A stretch of DNA of 64,000 bases from Planosporangium thailandense (GTDB taxonomy: Bacteria; Actinomycetota; Actinomycetes; Mycobacteriales; Micromonosporaceae): positions 62,001 through 126,000 of the forward strand of contig NZ_JAATVY010000008.1 in NCBI RefSeq assembly GCF_011947195.1. The letters are read 5' to 3'. How positions within the stretch are numbered: position 1 is the first letter of the stretch; each line of letters opens with the position of its first letter. The translations under genes and the position numbers were made by a program. The notes beneath the pieces were generated by a model. That model worked only from the letters and a program-made list of their open reading frames with translations. It was not told where the DNA came from and did no database searches. This document shows, in pieces, positions 16,476-35,211 of this stretch.

Positions 16476-17510
16476 ATGACGCTCACCGACGTGTGGTTCA
16501 CGCTCATCGCGCTGCTGTGGACCGGGTACTTCTTCCTGGAGGGCTTCGACTTCGGCGTCGGCATCCTGCTGCCGGTGCTGGGCCGGTCGGAAACCCACCG
16601 CCGACTGCTGATCAACACGATCGGGCCGGTCTGGGACGGCAACGAGGTGTGGCTGATCGTCGCCGCCGGTGCCACGTTCGCCGCCTTCCCCGAGTGGTAC
16701 GCGAGCCTCTTCTCCGGCTTCTACCTGCCGCTGCTGGTGATCCTGGTCGCGCTCATCCTGCGCGGCGTCGCGTTCGAGTACCGGGGAAAGGTCGACAGCG
16801 ACCGCTGGCGGCGCAACTGGGACCGGGCCATCGTCTTCGGCAGCCTCGCGCCGGCGGTCCTGTGGGGCGCGATCTTCGCCTCGGTCGTGCACGGGGTGGC
16901 GCTCGACGCCGACCACCAGTACGCGGGCGGGCCGCTCGACCTGCTCAGCCCGTACGCGCTGGCCGGCGGCGCCGCGACCCTGCTGTTGTTCACCACGCAC
17001 GGCGCGGTGTTCGTGGCACTGAAGACCACCGGTGACATCCGACACAGCGCGCGGGCGGTCGCCGGCCGGACCGGCGTCGCGGCCCTCGTCGCCGTCGCCG
17101 GGTGCCTGGCCTGGCTCCAGCTGACCCGGGGCACCACCGCGACCGCGGTCACCGCCGCCCTCGGCGCGGCGGCCCTGCTCGCGGCGCTGATCGCGGTCCG
17201 CGCCGGTCGCGAGGGGCGCGCATTCGGAGCCACCGCGGTGACGATCGTCGCCGCGACCGCGACCCTGTTCGGCGCGCTCCACCCGGACGTGCTGCCGTCG
17301 ACGCTCGACCCGGCGTACAGCCTGACGATCACCAACGCCGCCGCCAGCCCGTACACGCTGCGGATCATGACCTGGGTGGCGGTAGCGTTCATTCCCGTGG
17401 TGCTGCTCTATCAGGGCTGGACCTACTGGGTGTTCCGCAAACGTATCGGCGCCCAGCAGATCCCGCCCGTGACGTCCAGACCGTCCCCCGCCGGCGCGGC
17501 GAGATCGTGA
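16476..17510 (+). CDS. cydB: Cytochrome bd oxidase subunit II
   Basis: 344 residues, starting at the ATG that gives TLTDVWFTLIALLWTGYFFLEG (seen as TLTDVWFTLIALLW then FFLEGFDFGVG, the CydB signature near the first helix). WDGNEVWLIVAAGATFAAFP is the second conserved block. Eight or nine membrane helices. It pairs with CydA to form the oxidase. Gap to cydA is 12 bp; GAGGTG serves as ribosome site. Its stop overlaps the cydD GTG by 4 bp. Confidence 0.95.
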   Translation: MTLTDVWFTLIALLWTGYFFLEGFDFGVGILLPVLGRSETHRRLLINTIGPVWDGNEVWLIVAAGATFAAFPEWYASLFSGFYLPLLVILVALILRGVAFEYRGKVDSDRWRRNWDRAIVFGSLAPAVLWGAIFASVVHGVALDADHQYAGGPLDLLSPYALAGGAATLLLFTTHGAVFVALKTTGDIRHSARAVAGRTGVAALVAVAGCLAWLQLTRGTTATAVTAALGAAALLAALIAVRAGREGRAFGATAVTIVAATATLFGALHPDVLPSTLDPAYSLTITNAAASPYTLRIMTWVAVAFIPVVLLYQGWTYWVFRKRIGAQQIPPVTSRPSPAGAARS

Positions 17511-19144
17511 AACCGCTCGACCCCCGGCTGCTCCGCTACGCCCAGGCGACCCGCTGGTACCTGGCCGCCTCCGTCGCCCTCGGCCTGTCCGTCGCCGGGC
17601 TGATCGTCGCGCAGGCGACCCTGCTCGCCGGCGGCATCACCGACGTCTTCCTCCACGGCGCCGGGCTGCACGCCCTGCGCGGCACGCTACTCGCGCTCGG
17701 CGCCGTCGTCGTCGGCCGGGCGGTGGCGGCCTGGGCGCAGGAACTCGCCGCGCACCGCGCGTCCGCCGCGGTCAAGACCCAGCTCCGCGAGCGGCTGCTC
17801 GACCACGTCGTACGCCTGGGCCCCGGCTGGCTGACCGGCCAGCGGGGTGGAGAGCTGACCACGCTCGCCACCCGGGGCGTGGACGCGCTCGACGGGTACT
17901 TCTCCCGCTACCTGCCCCAGCTCGTCCTCGCGTCGATCGTGCCGTTCATCGTGCTCGCCCGGCTGGTGCCGGCCGACCTGCTGGCCACGGTCACCATCGC
18001 GGTCACGCTGCCGCTGATCCCGATCTTCATGGCGCTCATCGGGCTCACCACCGAAGCCCGCAACCGGCGCAGCTTCCGGATGTTGACCCGGCTGGCCCAC
18101 CACTTCCTCGACGTGGTGGCCGGCCTGCCCACCCTCAAGGTGTTCGGCCGGGCTAAGGCGCAGGCGGAGACGATCCGCCGGGTCAGCGACGAGCACCGGC
18201 GGGCCACCATGCGTACCCTCCGGCTGGCCTTCCTGTCGTCGCTGGTACTGGAGCTGATCTCGACGATCTCGGTGGCCCTGGTCGCCGTCGCGGTCGGGCT
18301 GCGCCTGGTCAACGGCCGGCTCGACCTGCACACTGCCCTGCTGGTGCTGGTCCTGGCCCCGGAGGCGTACCTGCCGCTGCGGCTGGTCGGCACCCACTTC
18401 CACGCCAGCACGGAGGGGCTCGCGGCCGCCGAGCAGGTCTTTTCAGTACTCGAAGAGGAGCCCCCGCCGCGCGGCGCCCGTACCGACGTCCCGGCCGGCC
18501 CGATCGTGCTCTCCGATGTCACGGTGCGCTACCCCGACCGCGCGGTGCCGGCCCTCGACGGCGTCGACCTGACCATCGTGCCCGGCGAGGTCGTGGCGCT
18601 GGCCGGTCCGAGCGGGTGCGGCAAGTCGACGCTGCTCTCGGTGCTGCTGGGCTTCGTGGTGCCGGACGCCGGCCGGGTCATCGTGGGCGGCGTGAACGTG
18701 GCCGACCTCGACCCGGACGCGTGGCGCCGGCACGTGGTGTGGATGTCGCAGCGGCCGTACCTGTTCGCCGGCACGGTCGCCGACAACATCCGGCTGGGCA
18801 CCCCGGACGCCCCTCCCGATGCGGTGCGCTCGGCGGCCGAGGCGGCGCTGGCCGCCGACTTCCTGGACACGCGCGTCGGCGACGGCGGCGCCGGGCTGTC
18901 GGCCGGCCAGCGGCAACGGGTCTCGCTCGCGCGAGCGTTCCTGTCCGAAGCGCCCTTGGTGCTGCTGGACGAGCCGACCGCGAACCTCGACGGGGAGAGC
19001 GAAGCGGCGGTACTGGAGGCGGTGCGCCGGCTGGCGGCCGGCCGCACCGTCGTGCTGGTCGCGCACCGGCCCGCGCTGCTGGCGCTGGCCGATCGGGTGG
19101 TCCGGATGGATGCCGGCCGGGTGGTCGAGGCGGTGACAACATGA
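17507..19144 (+). CDS. cydD: ABC exporter CydD, cytochrome bd assembly
   Basis: 545 residues. Half-transporter of the heterodimeric CydDC thiol exporter (cysteine/glutathione) needed for assembly of cytochrome bd. Six N-terminal membrane helices, then the ATPase with Walker A GPSGCGKST, the signature motif as LSAGQRQRVSLARAF, and Walker B VLLDEPTANLD followed by an H-loop VAHRP. Coupled to cydB (GTGA) and to cydC (ATGA). The gene order after cydAB identifies which half it is. Confidence 0.93.
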   Translation: MKPLDPRLLRYAQATRWYLAASVALGLSVAGLIVAQATLLAGGITDVFLHGAGLHALRGTLLALGAVVVGRAVAAWAQELAAHRASAAVKTQLRERLLDHVVRLGPGWLTGQRGGELTTLATRGVDALDGYFSRYLPQLVLASIVPFIVLARLVPADLLATVTIAVTLPLIPIFMALIGLTTEARNRRSFRMLTRLAHHFLDVVAGLPTLKVFGRAKAQAETIRRVSDEHRRATMRTLRLAFLSSLVLELISTISVALVAVAVGLRLVNGRLDLHTALLVLVLAPEAYLPLRLVGTHFHASTEGLAAAEQVFSVLEEEPPPRGARTDVPAGPIVLSDVTVRYPDRAVPALDGVDLTIVPGEVVALAGPSGCGKSTLLSVLLGFVVPDAGRVIVGGVNVADLDPDAWRRHVVWMSQRPYLFAGTVADNIRLGTPDAPPDAVRSAAEAALAADFLDTRVGDGGAGLSAGQRQRVSLARAFLSEAPLVLLDEPTANLDGESEAAVLEAVRRLAAGRTVVLVAHRPALLALADRVVRMDAGRVVEAVTT

Positions 19145-20919
19145 CCGCCACTCCGCGATCTTGGACACCTGAGCGACCTATAGGTGGCACAAGTGTCCAA
19201 GATCGGCGGCCGATGCTGCGGCTGCTGCGTCTCGCCTCGCCGCTCGCGCCCCGGCTCGCGCTCGCCGTCCTTTTCGGCGTCCTCGCGGCCGGCAGCGCGA
19301 TCGGCCTGACCGCGACCTCCGCCTGGCTGATCTCACGTGCCGCGCAGCACCCGCCCGTGCTCTACCTGACCGTCGCGATCGTGGCGGTACGCACCTTCGG
19401 CATCGCCCGGGGGGTGTTCCGCTACGTCGAGCGGCTCGCCGGCCACGACGCCGCGTTCGGTGTACTGACCCGGCTGCGGGTGCTCGCGTACCAGCGCCTG
19501 GAGCGGCTGGCGCCGGCGGCCCTGCCGGTGCTGCGCGCCGGTGACCTGGTCGGACGCTTCGTCGCCGACGTCGACGCGGCGCTCGACGTCCTCGTACGGG
19601 TCGTCCTGCCCTACATCGTCGCGGCGCTGATCGGCGCGGCCACCGCCGGCTTCCTCGGCGCCCTGCTGCCCGGCGCCGGGGTCGTACTCGCGGCCGGACT
19701 CCTGCTCGTGGCGGTCGGCGTGCCGGCCATCCAGCACACGGTGGCCCGGCGCGCCGACCGGCGTACCGCGCCGCTGCGCGGCGAGCTGTCCGCGGCAACC
19801 GTCGACCTGCTGCGCGGCCTGCCGGATCTCGTGGCGTTCGGCGCGGCCCGCCGCCGGCTCGCCGCCCTCGCCGAGACCGACGACCGGCTGCGCAGGGCGA
19901 CCGCCCGGTCGGCGGCCGGCGTCGGGCTCGGCGCCGGCCTGGTTGCCCTGGCCACCGGCGCCTGCGTCTGGGCCGGCCTCGCGCTGGGTGCCGGTGCGGT
20001 ACGGGCGGGCACCCTGAACGGCGTCGTCCTCGCCGTCGTGGTGCTCACCCCGTTCGCGGTCTTCGACACCGTCTCCGGGCTGCCCGCCGCGGCCGCCCAA
20101 CTGGCGACGGCCCGCGCGGCCCTCGGGCGGGTGTTCAGCCTGCTCGACCAGCCCGACCCCGTGTCGGAACCGGCCGCGCCGGCGCCCCTGCCCGCCGATC
20201 ACCGGCTGGAGCTGATCGGCGTGAGCGCCCGGTGGCCCGGCGGGCCCGACGTGCTGCACGATGTCGATCTGGCCCTGTCACCCGGCCGGCGGGTCGCGGT
20301 CGTCGGGCCGAGCGGCTCGGGCAAGAGCACGCTCGCCGCGGTGCTCGTACGGTTCCTCGACCCCAGCGCCGGGAAGGTGACCCTGGGCGGCGTCGACACC
20401 CGCGACCTCGCCGGTGATGACGTCCGCACCGTCGTGGGTCTGCTCACCGACGACGCCCGCCTGTTCGACACCACGATCAGGGACAACCTGCGGATCGGCG
20501 ATCGCGGCGCCGACGATGAGCGGCTACGGGCCGCGCTCGCCGACGCCCGGCTGCTGGAGTGGGTCGACTCGCTGCCGAACGGCCTCGACACCATGGTGGG
20601 CGAGCAGGGCTCCCGCTTGTCGGGCGGGCAGCGCCGGCGGCTCGCGCTCGCCCGCGCGCTGCTGGCGGAGTTCCCGATCCTGATCCTGGACGAGCCGACC
20701 GAGCACCTCGACGAGGAGACCGCCGACGCGCTCACCGCGGACCTGCTCGCCGTGACGCGCGGGCGGACCACCGTCCTGATCACCCACCGGCTGACCGGGC
20801 TGGCGGAGGTCGACGAGATCGTCGTCGTCGACGGCGGCCGGATCGTCCAGCGCGGCGGCCATGACGATCTCGTTGCCGTGGACGGCACGTACCGGCGGAT
20901 GTGTCAGCGCCATTCGTGA
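19141..20919 (+). CDS. cydC: ABC exporter CydC, cytochrome bd assembly, with palindrome-encoded N-terminal extension
   Basis: 592 residues if started at the ATG overlapping the cydD stop. The family-like part begins at residue 25 (MLRLLRLASPLAPRLALAV), where an ATG at 19213 is an alternative start. The first 24 residues (core [17 protein letters not shown]) are encoded by a 48-bp palindrome at 19157-19204, so they look like an insertion. Six membrane helices, then Walker A GPSGSGKST, signature LSGGQRRRLALARAL, Walker B LILDEPTEHLDEE and ITHRL. Partner of CydD. A second palindrome begins at the stop codon and should act as terminator. Confidence 0.92.
   Translation: MTATPRSWTPERPIGGTSVQDRRPMLRLLRLASPLAPRLALAVLFGVLAAGSAIGLTATSAWLISRAAQHPPVLYLTVAIVAVRTFGIARGVFRYVERLAGHDAAFGVLTRLRVLAYQRLERLAPAALPVLRAGDLVGRFVADVDAALDVLVRVVLPYIVAALIGAATAGFLGALLPGAGVVLAAGLLLVAVGVPAIQHTVARRADRRTAPLRGELSAATVDLLRGLPDLVAFGAARRRLAALAETDDRLRRATARSAAGVGLGAGLVALATGACVWAGLALGAGAVRAGTLNGVVLAVVVLTPFAVFDTVSGLPAAAAQLATARAALGRVFSLLDQPDPVSEPAAPAPLPADHRLELIGVSARWPGGPDVLHDVDLALSPGRRVAVVGPSGSGKSTLAAVLVRFLDPSAGKVTLGGVDTRDLAGDDVRTVVGLLTDDARLFDTTIRDNLRIGDRGADDERLRAALADARLLEWVDSLPNGLDTMVGEQGSRLSGGQRRRLALARALLAEFPILILDEPTEHLDEETADALTADLLAVTRGRTTVLITHRLTGLAEVDEIVVVDGGRIVQRGGHDDLVAVDGTYRRMCQRHS
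19157..19204. repeat. 48-bp GATC-bounded palindrome, copy A (cydD/cydC junction)
   Basis: Starts GATCTTGGACAC and ends GTGTCCAAGATC; the two 24-bp halves pair at 21 of 24 positions around a CCTATAGG centre. It lies 12 bp downstream of the ATGA overlap between cydD and cydC, inside the 5' end of the cydC frame. A closely related copy (33938-33985) sits at the cbiB/cobQ junction. The length (16 codons) preserves the frame. Confidence 0.9.
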
Positions 20920-20965
20920 TCGTGAAGGGTTCATGGGGTCCTGGCCCCACGAACCCTTCACGATC
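20918..20965. repeat. 48-bp GATC-bounded palindrome acting as terminator after cydC
   Basis: Starts GATCGTGAAGGGTTC and ends GAACCCTTCACGATC; 20 or 21 of 24 positions pair. It begins within the cydC stop codon and lies just before the stop of the convergent membrane-protein gene, so it can terminate both. Same length and GATC ends as the 19157 and 33938 palindromes but a different core. Confidence 0.85.
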
Positions 20966-20968
20966 ATG

Positions 20969-29517: not shown

Positions 29518-32391
29518 GTGGAGTCCACGGACGAGACGGCAAAGGTCGTGGCGGGCCCCCTGTTCTCGCTGGTCTCCGGGACTACGCTGCGCTTCGCGTC
29601 GCTTATCGCCGCGGTGCTCGGTACGGCCACCTTCGCGTTCAACGTGCTGTACACGACGGTGCCGGCGAATGCGCGGCGCGGCGCCGAGACATACACCCGC
29701 TGCGCCGAGGTGCTCTGGGCACACACCCCGACGGCAGTGGTCGACGTCGACAGCTACACCGCCGCGACCGAGCAGTCGCTGCGCGACCACAGCCGGTGCG
29801 TCGCCCCGTTCGAGCACGCGGAGGCGATGTGGGCGTTGGCCGGCCTCGGCGTCCTGCTCGTGGTCGCAGCGGTGCTGTACCTGCTGGCCCCCTGGTGGAC
29901 CCGGCGGCGGGGCCGCCTGATCCCGGTCACCCGCGAGGACTTCCCCGACCTGTACGCGGAACTTACGGCGCTGGTCGCGACGGCCGGGCTGCGACGCACC
30001 CCGATCTTCGTCATCGACGCGGCGGCGGGCACGCCGGGCGGGCTGGCCTTCGGTCGGCTCGGCCGGTACACCGTACGGCTCAACGCGGGCCTGGTACCTG
30101 TGCTGTCCACCGAGCCGGCCACGTTCCGCGCGGTGGTGCTGCACGAACTGGCGCACATCCGTAACCGCGACGTCGACCTCGCGTACGCCGCGGTGGCGCT
30201 GTGGCGCGCGTTCATCGCCGTAGCGATGGTGCCGCTCGTGGTGGTGCTGCTCGATCCGCCGATCCTGACCGATCCGTGGGCCGCGCCGTGGTCGTGGCCC
30301 GGTTACGGCAGCGGGCTGCTCGTCGACGGCGGCCGGACGGTGGCATTCGCGGCTGTGGTGTACCTCAGTCGTAACGCGGTGCTGCGCAGCCGTGAGCTGT
30401 ACGCCGACGCGCGGGCCGCCGCGCACGCCGCCGGCGCCCTGCGCCGGATCCTGTCGAAGGCCGCCGGGGAGGCCCGGTGGCGGGCCCGGATCGCGGCACA
30501 CCCCCTCCGCCTCGTCCGGTTACGGGCGATCGACGACCCGCTGCTAGTGGTGCGACCGTGCTTCGCAGAGCTGTTCGGCGCCGGACTGACCACCGCGATC
30601 GCGGCCGACGCTCTCACCTCGTACGCCTATCTGGCGCTCCCGCACACCGGGGATCCGGCCGATCGGGTCTCCAGTTGGCTCGTCGCGCCCGTGGCCACCG
30701 GGCTGCTGGCCGCTGCCGCCTGGCGTGCCGCGGTCGCGTCCGCACCACACCATCGGCTCTCGGTGGTGCCGGCGGCCCTGGGCTTCGGCCTCGGTTGGCT
30801 CTGCGGCGACCTGCTCGCGACCCCGCTCGGCCCCTTCGTCTGGGGAGTGTTCGGCAGTGCGGTCTCCACCGGCTGGCTGCCGTACGCCGACGTCCCCCGG
30901 GTAGGCGGGTTCAGCCTCGACGCGGCCGTCGCCGGCTCCCTGCTGCTGGCCGCGGGGATGCTCTGTCAGGCAGGCCTCGTGTCGGCGGCGGCGCGCTGCT
31001 GGCTACCGGTCCTGCGCGGTCACACCGCTCGCCGGGGCTGGCTCGCCTCCACGCTCGTCACCGCCGTGCCGTTCGCCGTCTGGTACGGCATCTGGTCGGA
31101 AGTCCGCAGCGCGCCCTACCTCGTCGGTCGCCTGTACCACCTCGGGGCAGCGGACGCCGCGCGGCTGGGGATTTCGGTCTGGGAGGGACCGGGCTTCGCG
31201 GCGTTGACCACCTTCTACCCGCCGCTGAGCATCTTCCTCGGGCGGCCCCTGGCCGTCCCGGTGGTAATGGTGGCGTGGCTGTATCCGCTCGCGGCCTGGC
31301 TGCGACGGCCGGCCGGTGCGTCTGCTCGCCCTGTCCTTCGGCTCCGGTGGGCGCTGACGGCGGGTGTCATCGGCGGCGCGGCGGTGGCGGCCGTGCTGGT
31401 CACCGCCAGGGCGCTGCTACACCGCTTCGCCCCGGACCTGGCCGGCTCCGCTGCCTTCTCGTCGTACTACTACTGGTCCGCCACTGCCGTGGCGGTACTG
31501 GCACAGGCGGTCGTCGGTGGCGTTGTCGCGGCCCCGGTCCGGCCGCTGGGTCTGGTGCTCGGCCAGTTCGCCGCGTTCTGTACCGCCGTGGTGTCCACGG
31601 CCGCGATGATCGGCGTCATCTGCCTCGGCGGCTGTATCCCCACGTTCCGACTCCGGTCCGCCGCGTGTCCGTGGCAGTTCGATACCGGGTACGTCCTGAA
31701 CCTTCTTCGTCGCATCGTCGTCGAGGGGGCGATCGCCGCGCTGCTGGCCGGGGTCGCAGTCAGCGTGGTCGCCTACGCCGTGGCCGGCCGGCCGCTCGTA
31801 CGCTGGCGTCGCGCCCGGTCCCGACCGGTCATCGCGCTCGCCGCGGTGCTTCTGGAACTGGTGCTCGTGGCGACGCTCGTGGCGGGTCCGGTTGGAGGTT
31901 TGCGGCCGGCGCAGGTGTCGGCGCAGCCGTCGACGTCGGCGTCGCGGCCGCCGTCACCGTCTCCTGGTCCGGTGTCCGGGTCGGATCCGTGCGTGATCGG
32001 TACGTGGGTCGAGGTCTCCCACCGGGAGGAGGCGCATCCGCAGCCGTACGGCGCGGTGACGCTCGTCGGGACAGGGACGATCCGACGGTTCGGGGCCGAC
32101 GGGACGCTGATGGTCGACTACGGCGACGGAGTCGCGCTTTCCGGCACTGCGCGGGGCGACACCTTGGAGGCGGTCTTCTCCGGTACGGAGAGGTTCGAGT
32201 TCCACACCGAAGTCGGCACGATCGTGTACACGAATCCCCGGTCCGACGCGGTGTTCACCTGGAAGGTCAACGGTCTGGCGCTCTACCGCGGACCCGCCGG
32301 CGTCAACCCGCCGACGGACCGCTACACGTGTACCGGCAACACCCTGCGCCTGGTCAGCGACAACTATGTGATCGAGCTACGCCGGTCCTGA
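29518..32391 (+). CDS. Large multi-spanning M48-type membrane metalloprotease with C-terminal beta domain
   Basis: 957 residues from a GTG. Membrane helix at about 20-40, an extracytoplasmic loop with two Cys, a second helix ([22 protein letters not shown], in part), then the protease domain with [15 protein letters not shown] (HELAH zinc motif) and [10 protein letters not shown] as the likely third ligand. About twelve further helices follow to residue 790. The last 150 residues (from [13 protein letters not shown]) form a soluble beta-rich domain that recalls lipocalin-type beta barrels, after a Pro/Ser linker. Function unknown; quality control or surface processing is plausible. It overlaps the convergent cobQ by 15 bp. 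Confidence 0.8.
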
Positions 32392-33921
32392 ATCACCCGT
32401 CCCAGGCGGAACGAAACGCAAACCGGCCGGCGGCCCGGCTTCGATGAGCCGCCACAACGCACCGGTGTCGAGGTGCTCCTCGACCAGGTCGCCGAGCAGG
32501 TCAAGGCCCCGTTCACGAAGGCCGGCGAAGTCGGTGTCTGGCGCGCCCCGGAAGCCGTGCCGGCCCGCCAGCCGGGCGGCTTCGGCCAGGAACGCGCGGC
32601 GGAAGTCGTCGGCTTCGAAGGCGCCGTGCCAGTGCGTACCGAAGATGTTGCCGCTGTGGGCGCCTTCGCCGGTGCCGTCGGCGGTCCTGATGAGCGGCGT
32701 GACATCGGCGCTGCGGGACACGTACCCGTGGTGGATCTCGTAGCCACGCACCCCGGCGCCGAGGGCCGCGCCCTCGGGGCGGCGGAGCGTCTTCTCGGGG
32801 GCGAACGCCACCTCGATCGGCAGCAGCCCGAGCCCGGCGACGGTGCCGCGCCGGCTCTCGACCTCGTCGTGGATGCGCTCGGCGAGCATCTGGTACCCGC
32901 CGCAGATGCCCAGCAGCGGCTTGCCGGCCTTCGCGTGGGCGGTGACGGCCTCGGCCAGACCGGTCTCCCGCAGCCAGGCAAGGTCCTCCACAGTGGATTT
33001 ACTGCCGGGCAGGATGACCAGGTCGGCGTCGGCCAGGTCGGCCGGCTCCGTGGTGATGCGGACCCGTACGCCCGGCTCGGCAGCGAGCGCCTCCGCGTCG
33101 GTGGCGTTGGAGATGCGGGGCAGCCGGACCACGGCGACCGTCAGCCACTCCGTGCCAAGGGGTTGGCTCGGACGGCCGAGGGTACGGCCGTACGCCAGCG
33201 AGTCCTCGCCATCCAGCCACAGGTCGTTGCTCCAGGGCAGCACGCCGTAGACCGGTCGACCGGTCAGCCGGCGCAGGTCGTCCAGGCCGGGCTGGAGCAG
33301 CGCCGGATCGCCGCGGAACTTGTTGACCACGAACCCGGCCAGCAGCGCCTGGTCTTCGGCCGACAGTAGGGCCAGCGTGCCGTACAGCGCGGCGAACACG
33401 CCGCCCCGGTCGATGTCGCCGACGACGATCGTGGGTAGGCCGGCGGCCCGTGCCAGGCCCATGTTGACGAAGTCGCCGGCCCGCAGGTTGATCTCGGTCG
33501 GGCTGCCGGCCCCTTCGCAGATCACGACGTCGTACTCGGCCCGCAGCTCAGCAAGGGTATCGAACACTGTCTGTCGAAGCTTTCCGCGGAACTCCCGGTA
33601 GGTCATCGCGTCGACCTGCCCGACCGCCCGGCCGAGCAGCACGACCTGGCTGCTGCGGTCGGAGCCGGGCTTGAGCAGTACCGGATTGAACCGCACGCTC
33701 GGCGCCACCCGGCACGCGGCGGCCTGCATCGCCTGCGCCCGGCCGATCTCGCCGCCCCGACCGGCGTCGTCGACCACGACCGCCGAGTTGTTGGACATGT
33801 TCTGTGCCTTGAACGGGGCGACCCGGACCCCACGGCGCACCAGCCACCGGCAGAGCCCCGCGGTCACCAGGCTCTTGCCCGCGTCCGAGGTCGTACCGGC
33901 GACGAGCAGTCCTCCACTCAT
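32377..33921 (-). CDS. cobQ: Cobyric acid synthase
   Basis: 514 residues. Glutamine-dependent amidation of adenosylcobyrinate a,c-diamide at four carboxylates. ATP-domain start [42 protein letters not shown], and a C-terminal GATase-1 domain with nucleophile Cys in [11 protein letters not shown] and His/Glu region GYEIHHGYV plus [10 protein letters not shown]. The ATG overlaps the cbiB stop by ATGA, so the two late cobalamin genes are coupled. A 48-bp palindrome lies 16 bp upstream of its start. Confidence 0.95.
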
Positions 33922-34934
33922 CGCCGTCCTCCTCGGCGATCTTGGACACTTGTGCCGGCTATAGGTCGCCTAGGTGTCCAAGATCTGCGGGCTCGCGCGG
34001 CGGTGGCGAGCACCGCGAGCCCGGTCGCGGCGGCGGTCACCAGCCCGGAGAGCCGTACCGCCCGATGGATGTCACCGACCTGCGGCGCGCGACCGGACCG
34101 GCCGAGCACCGGCCGATCCTCTACCCGACCGGCGTAGACGTTGCGCCCGCCGAGCCGTACGCCCAATGCCCCGGCCATCGCAGCCTCACACTGTCCGGAG
34201 TTGGGGCTCGGGTGCCGGCGCCCATCGCGCGCCCAGGTCCACAGCGCCCGCAGCGGGCTGCCGCCGACCAGCGGCGCCGCGGCCACCGTGAACGCGGCCG
34301 TGATGCGGGCGGGAACCAGGTTGGCCACGTCGTCGAGGCGCGCCGCCGCGGTGCCGAACCGGGCGTACCGACTCGACCGGTGCCCCACCATGGCGTCGAG
34401 GGTGTTGACGGCGCGGTATCCGACGAGCCCGGGCAGGCCGGCAACCGCTCCCCAGAAGAGCGCCCCGACGGCGGCGTCGGAGGTGTTCTCCGCGACCGAT
34501 TCCACCGTGGCCCGGGACAGCTCGGACCCGTCGAGCGCCGACGGGTCGCGCCCGCACAGGTGCGGCAACCGGTTGCGGGCGGCGGCGAGGTCACCGCTGC
34601 CGAGAGCCGAAGCCATCACCGTTCCCTCCCGTCGTAGCGAGGTCGAGCCGAGCACGGTCCACGTCGTGGCGGCCACGAGGGCCGCACGGAGCACCGGGCG
34701 GCGTCGGGTGGCGAGGCTGGCCGCCACCGCCGCCGCGGTGGGCACGCCGGCGGCGACCGCCACGTACCGCGCGCCCGCCTGCGTGGTCGGCGCGTACATG
34801 CACCGTTCGAGGGCGCCGGCGACCCGCCCGTACCCTGCGATCGGATGCCACCGCCGGGGGTCCCCCAGGGCGGCATCGAGCAGAGCGCCGGCGAGCAGTC
34901 CGGCCCCGGTGGCGACGGCGATCTTCCGAGACAC
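33918..34934 (-). CDS. cbiB: Adenosylcobinamide-phosphate synthase CbiB/CobD with palindrome-encoded C-terminal extension
   Basis: 338 residues. Integral membrane enzyme joining aminopropanol (or its phosphate) to adenosylcobyric acid. Family marks: [69 protein letters not shown] and [19 protein letters not shown]. The normal C-terminus should end near LATAARA; after it the frame continues through a 48-bp palindrome, adding [17 protein letters not shown] and GGRR. The same peptide occurs at the CydC N-terminus. Coupled to cobQ by ATGA. Confidence 0.93.
33938..33985. repeat. 48-bp GATC-bounded palindrome, copy B (cbiB/cobQ junction)
   Basis: Starts GATCTTGGACAC and ends GTGTCCAAGATC with CTATAG at the centre; 17 of 24 positions pair. 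It lies inside the 3' end of the cbiB frame, 16 bp before the cobQ start. Nearly the same sequence as copy A at 19157-19204, and read in the equivalent frame. Confidence 0.9.
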
Positions 34935-35002
34935 CCGTGCAGCGTAGCGACGAACGGCGGGACACGGTCGGGTCGGGCGGTGGCGCCAGTGCCGGTCTCC
35001 TC

Positions 35003-35162
35003 GCCTTCCCGTCGGGCGTCAGGTATTCCCGTCGGACGCCGCACCTTCCCGCCGGACGCCGCGTCTTCCCGACGGACACCGCACCTTCCCGATGGACGCC
35101 GGGTCTTCCCGTCGGACACCGCACCTTCCCGACGGACGCCGCGCCTTCCCGTCGGACGCCGG
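35003..35162. repeat. 20-bp tandem repeat (minisatellite), eight units
   Basis: Consecutive 20-bp units close to TTCCCGTCGGACGCCGCACC, eight copies with scattered changes, filling most of the 277-bp gap between cbiB and the SSB-paralogue gene. The period is not a multiple of three and neighbouring units differ without respect to codon position, so coding is unlikely. No spacers, so not CRISPR. Confidence 0.9.
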
Positions 35163-35211
35163 CCGAGACCGTCGATCGGAACGATCTCGGCCGCCCCCGT
35201 TGCGTCGACGA

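Follow-up and report, generated by a model that had tools for sequence, protein, structure and literature searches.

We analysed a 64,000-nt stretch of the Planosporangium thailandense genome (contig NZ_JAATVY010000008.1, positions 62,001 to 126,000; hereafter the window), in which two near-identical palindromes of 48 bp lie at 19157..19204 and 33938..33985, as a preliminary description of this DNA had noticed. The 12-bp arms are perfect and identical in both palindromes, and the arm sequence occurs exactly four times in the window, that is, as these two pairs. The adjoining genes could be named CydD, CydC, CbiB and CobQ from matches above the cut-offs of curated models. The features at these loci, together with two palindromes of other families, are as follows.

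17507..19144, + strand: cydD (TIGR02857, 667.7 bits against a cut-off of 435)
19141..20919, + strand: cydC (TIGR02868, 605.3 bits), overlapping cydD at ATGA, with an alternative start at 19213
19157..19204, no strand assigned: repeat copy 1, 12 nt past the cydD stop codon and within the cydC N-terminus if the ATGA start is used
20917..20966, no strand assigned: member of a second palindrome family (TGATC[CG]TGAAGG..), its first TGA being the cydC stop codon
26213..26254, no strand assigned: member of a third palindrome family (CTTGGGGAGTYTGACACC..), between convergent genes
32377..33921, - strand: cobQ (TIGR00313), overlapping cbiB at ATGA
33918..34934, - strand: cbiB (TIGR00380; PF03186 at residues 13-295)
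33938..33985, no strand assigned: repeat copy 2, in frame in the C-terminal tail of cbiB and directly ahead of the AGGAGG and ATGA start of cobQ

Both copies thus sit at ATGA junctions and are read in one frame, as had been proposed, the element being offset by 1 modulo 3 at the start of cydC and at the end of cbiB alike. Both also form more stable folds than 200 shuffled sequences (+ strand z -7.5 and -6.2, with 0 of 200 shuffles equal in either case). At the gathering threshold Rfam returned one tRNA in the window and no match at the repeat copies, and a scan for terminator-like sites called none at either of them. Translation of the cydC copy in P. thailandense is likely but not certain, since the CydC model first matches at residue 26, immediately past the repeat, and the ATG at 19213 offers an alternative start. 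The conserved domain of CbiB stops at residue 295 of 338, with the repeat beyond it. Upstream of cbiB (34993-35172), tandem 20-nt repeats (CGGACGCCGCACCTTCCCGA-like) form seven overlapping 80-nt copies in register.

The window copies belong to a large family. The P. thailandense genome, a 7.01-Mb draft in 114 contigs (the window being part of contig 93), holds 63 exact-arm pairs, nearly always just past stop codons, and a reversed control pattern gave 0; the repeat is thus present more often than expected by chance. Its length is 48 nt in all 50 of the 63 exact-arm copies that were listed. The arm occurs 144 times, 72 on each strand, with 126 occurrences in the 63 exact pairs and 18 elsewhere. 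Of these 18 unpaired arms 13 were inspected and proved to be 10 mutated copies, 2 half copies and 1 chance match in a gene. A role of single 12-mers like that of uptake sequences was rejected, since 126 of 144 arms lie in exact pairs and the 13 others inspected are mostly mutated copies. A different palindrome is fused to one of the half copies, and at C42:46003 (L250:3004) and C1:197266 the right arm is joined to another palindrome (GACTGGTCTGGGCCGC..), apparently the same chimera twice. Further palindrome families of 42-56 nt were seen at gene 3' ends, many with GATC near their ends (TGATC[CG]TGAAGG.., CTTGGGGAGTYTGACACC.., GATCGCGGAAAC..); their sites in this genome include C1:9735-9784, C1:430001+18559 and C93:17030-17083. 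Among strong palindromes in 1.06 Mb, 100 of 114 lie in convergent or co-directional gaps.

To place the repeat relative to genes, we read 1,264,342 bases of the genome, consisting of long stretches together with short windows picked for holding a copy and including 52 of the 63 exact copies. For gene prediction we built a simple finder that relies on codon usage and was trained on this genome only; some gene calls will be wrong, and the divergent cases may conceal missed genes. The placement set comprised 58 copies with at most 4 arm mismatches: 34 between convergent genes, 15 + 3 between co-directional genes, 4 between divergent genes and 2 inside open reading frames, with the cydC copy tallied as co-directional because the finder chose the later start. 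A gene end adjoins 52 of the 56 copies outside reading frames. The stop codon is within 30 nt in all 52 and within 15 nt in 49 of them (median 6). No feature of the repeat family is sharper than this distance to the stop codon. In convergent gaps both stops lie within 32 nt of the copy in 32 of 34 cases, and in co-directional gaps of at least 60 nt the copy is on the stop side in 9 of 9. The next gene begins 8-40 nt further on in 9 of the 18 co-directional cases, cydC among them. At 7 convergent copies a neighbouring reading frame enters the repeat and ends in it, four of them 27 nt in, at the centre. When only the long stretches were considered, a copy was found in 11 of 157 convergent gaps versus 8 of 765 others (p 5e-5), and 11 of the 19 copies fell in convergent gaps, which make up 9% of gap bases (p 2e-7). 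ATGA junctions are therefore not the typical location of the element, as 52 of 58 copies adjoin gene ends and 34 of 58 lie between convergent genes. Where the stem does stand at a coupled junction it may tune expression, as the preliminary description proposed.

The arms (positions 1-12) are nearly invariant, which is partly a consequence of arm-based detection. The remaining stem is informative. Positions 13-19 are variable, with two to four Watson-Crick pair types at most positions, and 84.5% of their cells are Watson-Crick, whereas shuffles reach 61% and at most 67%. At positions 20-21 mismatches prevail (34.5%), positions 22-24 pair at shuffle level, and the centre is mostly CYATRG, with the central AT in 53 of 58 copies. 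In the congeners the arms themselves have changed with compensation. Stem pairing has been kept through paired changes. On the sense strand of the 18 co-directional copies the non-Watson-Crick stem cells comprise 12 G-U, 3 A-C and 9 others; this excess of G-U over A-C is as expected if RNA is the selected form, with the caveat of small numbers and related copies. The 8 nt past the stem hold a mean of 0.97 T, with four or more T in 2 of 116 cases, compared with a mean of 1.89 and 14 of 122 at other 3'-end hairpins of the same genome. Outside the stem, bases at -k and +k (k 1-12) pair no more than in shuffles, and insertion into a pre-existing hairpin was rejected on this ground. The flank consensus is pyrimidine-rich and weak (0.18-0.46 bits at -8 to -4), with C, C, G and C the commonest bases, at low information, at -4 to -1.

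Beyond P. thailandense, exact-arm copies were found in three congeners, which judging by the coordinates of their copies are probably P. mesophilum (8), P. flavigriseum (16) and a metagenome-assembled genome titled Dactylosporangium (4; hereafter the MAG), and 77 of the 81 genomes examined had none. A one-genome-per-species collection of 84,980 species, from which P. thailandense itself is possibly absent, gave 50 matching stretches, all titled Micromonosporaceae: P. flavigriseum 16, Virgisporangium ochraceum 10, P. mesophilum 8, the MAG 4, Micromonospora 11 and an unclassified Micromonosporaceae 1. Viral contigs gave 0 exact matches to the repeat. A search with the 7-bp core of the arm matched in 45 of 250 genomes versus 12 of 250 for the reversed control, many single matches being non-palindromic, and its use was limited to spotting arms in other genera. 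The cores are alike among themselves in V. ochraceum (TACATCGAATTCGATGCA-like) and in Micromonospora (TTTCCGTTCGCG..ACGGAAA-like, 47 nt), and two genomes of another genus hold 7 copies with GACCTTGGACAC arms and TTTGTCAGG- or TTTGACCGG-like cores. Within V. ochraceum (10 copies) the cores differ by a median distance of 4, versus 14 to the P. thailandense copies, and within Micromonospora (11 copies including the unclassified one) likewise by 4, versus 12. The latter count leaves out the Micromonospora sicca copy (L018), whose core is of Planosporangium type and unlike those of other Micromonospora copies; a transfer is possible. Judged by these comparisons, the arms recur across genera and the cores are lineage-specific. 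A gene end read by eye lies within 30 nt of 15 of 16 copies in P. flavigriseum, 8 of 8 in P. mesophilum and 3 of 4 in the MAG, and of 6 of 10 in V. ochraceum and 3 of 12 of Micromonospora type. Planosporangium copies thus follow the stop-codon rule strongly and Micromonospora copies weakly, as read with a gene finder trained on P. thailandense only.

We then compared orthologous sites in two ways. In a first set, with loci chosen because the relative carries exact arms, 18 pairs were aligned and the repeat was at the same place in 13, several times with the same boundary base relative to conserved flanking sequence, as read by eye. At the 8 sites shared with P. flavigriseum the orthologue core distance was 6-11 (median 8), and 7 of the 8 orthologue cores were at or above the median distance to same-genome copies on both sides. 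From these comparisons, cores of P. thailandense and P. flavigriseum have changed in concert at shared addresses. Orthologue cores were closer than same-genome copies in 3 of 3 pairs with P. mesophilum and in 1 of 2 with the MAG; the orthologous signal kept in P. mesophilum argues against fast homogenisation everywhere. The second set took P. thailandense sites regardless of relatives; 27 of the 30 prepared were typed, 6 of the 27 without an aligned counterpart. Read by eye, the 21 pairs with P. mesophilum held a related element in 7, another hairpin in 3 and none in 5, with 6 not called. The 20 pairs with P. flavigriseum held a related element in 4, another hairpin in 3, an ambiguous one in 1 and none in 7, with 5 not called. 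One site, C27:277199, is in both relatives' lists as a neighbour only, among the pairs not called in either. The related elements often have compensated arms (GATCGTGGACAC, GATCTCGGACGC, GGCCTTGGACAG). Since at least 5 P. mesophilum and at least 7 P. flavigriseum sites are empty, those junctions can do without the repeat. At C38:408244, an empty site, the flanks seemingly arrived together with the repeat, as read by eye.

Only 3 of the 58 P. thailandense copies are coding, those in cydC, cbiB and recF, and all are read in one frame. Two coding copies lie outside the window.

C27:191766-192902 (L095:11766-12902), P. thailandense, - strand: recF, with the repeat in a linker and reading SWTDGGPVAPLSVQD
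L058:4298-6007, V. ochraceum: MmpA-family membrane protein gene with an in-frame copy, 1 of 10 copies in this species

Alignment with orthologues separated the three P. thailandense cases. The cbiB copy is absent from 3 of 3 congeners, and the reading frame is 18 codons longer at that end than in P. mesophilum; on these alignments the copy is a private in-frame insertion. In P. mesophilum cydC the repeat is at the same place with the frame open and the arms compensated, and it is probably translated there because no in-frame ATG, GTG or TTG lies between the repeat and the conserved LLRLASP. P. flavigriseum has a short, different hairpin at the cydC site and the MAG, as read by eye, another hairpin. 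The recF peptide has been retained by the MAG and P. mesophilum (SWTDGGPVAPLSVED, SWTDDGSVAPLSVQN) in spite of a decaying palindrome, and it is more distant in P. flavigriseum (SWDEAIPALPLTIEA). The RecF match spans 378 residues in all four genomes and the family length is similar, with no net gain of 16 codons visible against congeners or family. The three cases show capture into protein at different stages: the cbiB copy is private, the cydC copy is common to two species, and recF has a conserved peptide whose palindrome is decaying. A peptide-pattern search of 1,142 predicted P. thailandense genes returned recF, cbiB and two matches away from any copy. With the MmpA-family gene included, the SWT..SVQD frame is used in 4 of 4 coding copies, which is no more than suggestive. 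Across 116 oriented copies this frame is open in 113, the second in 104 and the third in 30; since it is open in 113 of 116 anyway, the open frame is no evidence of selection.

What might the repeat do? We give about even credence to the reading that it is a REP-like Micromonosporaceae family of 48-nt palindromes, acting as an RNA hairpin beside stop codons. The usual place in P. thailandense, a few bases past a stop codon and mostly between convergent genes, would let the palindrome form a hairpin at the message's 3' end, and one palindrome could serve both convergent messages. Such a hairpin would stand where the terminating ribosome sits and may slow termination and shield the 3' end from exonucleases. 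We favour a message-end hairpin beside the terminating ribosome because 49 of 52 copies are within 15 nt of the stop codon and because of the reported effect of E. coli REPs: PMC12306157, citing other work, states in the text available that translation is lowered by REPs less than 16 nt away from a stop codon; of 4,072 predicted E. coli REPs it counts 446 at such distances. We infer that such hairpins exist in vivo and influence translation or decay. The main rival sees the copies as transcription terminators that lack a U-tract, work in both directions, are shared by convergent genes and have spread ready-made. The strength of the hairpins on either strand, the 34 of 58 copies between convergent genes with both stops within 32 nt in 32 of them, and the replacement of the repeat by a different hairpin at several orthologous sites would all suit termination, and we consider it possible. 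However, the stem is followed by few T (a mean of 0.97, and four or more in 2 of 116, compared with 1.89 and 14 of 122 at the other 3'-end hairpins), no terminator-like site was called at either window copy, and the next gene follows within 8-40 nt in 9 of 18 co-directional cases including cydC; the absent T-tract and the close next genes oppose a simple terminator. A function of the duplex itself, with the palindrome bound by a nucleoid protein, a topoisomerase or a recombinase, seems unlikely to us. Gyrase is reported to bind the BIME repeats of E. coli. The arms, which recur across genera, are much more constant than the remaining stem, the central AT persists in 53 of 58 copies where a hairpin loop would be free to vary, and supercoils meet between convergent genes, as such a site would predict; yet arms change with compensation in the congeners, G-U exceeds A-C on the sense strand, and nearness to stop codons of a few nucleotides is unnecessary for a role in supercoiling.

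Two further explanations treat the repeat as a mobile unit. The preliminary description saw in it a counterpart of the Rickettsia palindromic elements (RPE), that is, a selfish element inserting in frame into protein genes. The likeness holds for the in-frame coding copies with their shared peptide in cydC, cbiB, recF and one V. ochraceum gene, all in one frame, for the private cbiB insertion and for a length of 48 nt, or 16 codons; it breaks down on the size, on the CGTC end and on the coding share of only 3 of 58 in a mostly coding genome (p 2e-43 for 3 of 58 at 0.86; coding fraction 0.71-0.88 across five stretches of the genome). As the frame is open anyway in 113 of 116 oriented copies and recF shows no net length gain against congeners or family, we judge an RPE-like origin very improbable. 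By the hairpin reading favoured above, the coding copies would instead be by-products of insertion before a stop (cbiB), after a start (cydC) or in a linker (recF), and would be tolerated since the unit spans 16 codons and has no stop in the frame used. A MITE, in which the arms would be the terminal inverted repeats of a DNA transposon and its transposase would move the short unit, is likewise scarcely credible. Dispersed copies, constant ends, a variable interior and empty orthologous sites are all MITE-like, but direct flank repeats of 3-7 nt, as a target-site duplication would leave, are absent in all 58 copies, and none of the 13 inspected unpaired arms (of 18) was seen to bound a longer element, so that no autonomous parent with the same ends was found there, in a genome of which about 1.3 of 7.0 Mb was read. 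GATC was rejected as a target-site duplication: 7 copies (G046, G113) end in GACC..GGTC, which is inverted and not direct, and direct flank repeats are lacking. A search for the Y1 transposase (PF01797, the only transposase family searched) gave 0 matches in P. thailandense and was positive in 5 of 14 control genomes.

We infer that the 48-nt unit is spread and kept uniform by some process of copying or conversion. What is copied seems to be the palindrome alone, since five P. thailandense copies are identical over 48 nt and the flanks share only a weak consensus. We tentatively propose, and would put it as a conjecture, that the arms are the recognition ends of a palindrome-copying or exchange system of Micromonosporaceae, which might rewrite cores at fixed addresses with the lineage's current core and need no RAYT, target duplication or known transposase. 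If true, the stop-codon hairpins of each species would change in concert, with ends and addresses remaining constant. Species-specific cores at the same address make gene conversion or targeted replacement testable by strain comparison. The spread and homogeneity of gene-less short palindromic repeats are little understood outside RAYT systems, and here is an actinomycete family without a detectable Y1 transposase, lying a few nucleotides from stop codons.

How does this family compare with known systems? The mycobacterial MIRU are actinobacterial repeats at overlapping stop/start operon junctions, and they are longer, directional and not palindromic. Among the 48-nt copies, by contrast, ATGA junctions were noted only for the two window copies. 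With RPE the family shares the translation of some copies in frame, giving a recognisable peptide (SWTxxxxxxxxSVQD) in unrelated proteins. However, as described in the available text of PMC10969869 and PMC3733652, RPE are about 150 bp long, often lie in genes and end in CGTC, whereas the P. thailandense repeat is 48 nt long, coding in 3 of 58 copies, and shows no CGTC in its flank consensus. Like MITEs, as characterised in the accessible part of PMC10969869, it is short, non-coding, dispersed, mostly intergenic and bounded by inverted ends; unlike them, it comes without a target duplication (0 of 58) or an autonomous parent found, and its interior is itself palindromic and changes in concert. 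In the titles and abstract openings listed, with most subscription journals outside the search, there is no description of the 48-nt family. The closest resemblance in placement is to REPs, which the available portions of PMC3733652 and PMC12306157 describe as short palindromes in high copy number. They lie downstream of coding regions, in convergent and co-directional gaps, and at times within genes or so that they provide a stop codon; a subset within 15 nt of stop codons is reported to stall ribosomes. Actinobacteria are not among the REP phyla named in the available text of PMC3733652, and RepRanger gives palindrome counts for three Actinomycetota genomes, none of them of the 48-nt family. 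The 48-nt family likewise occurs in many copies outside genes, mainly between convergent (34 of 58) and co-directional (18 of 58) genes, with the hairpin at most 15 nt past the stop codon in 49 of 52 gene-end copies. It differs in length (REPs are given as 20-40 nt in the same partial texts), in that the GTAG/CGTC tag of REPs is not seen in its flank consensus, and in that no RAYT-type Y1 transposase was found in P. thailandense (PF01797, 0 matches). With neither the tag nor the RAYT, it is set apart from the tagged REPs as a repeat of REP-like placement and maybe of REP-like function.
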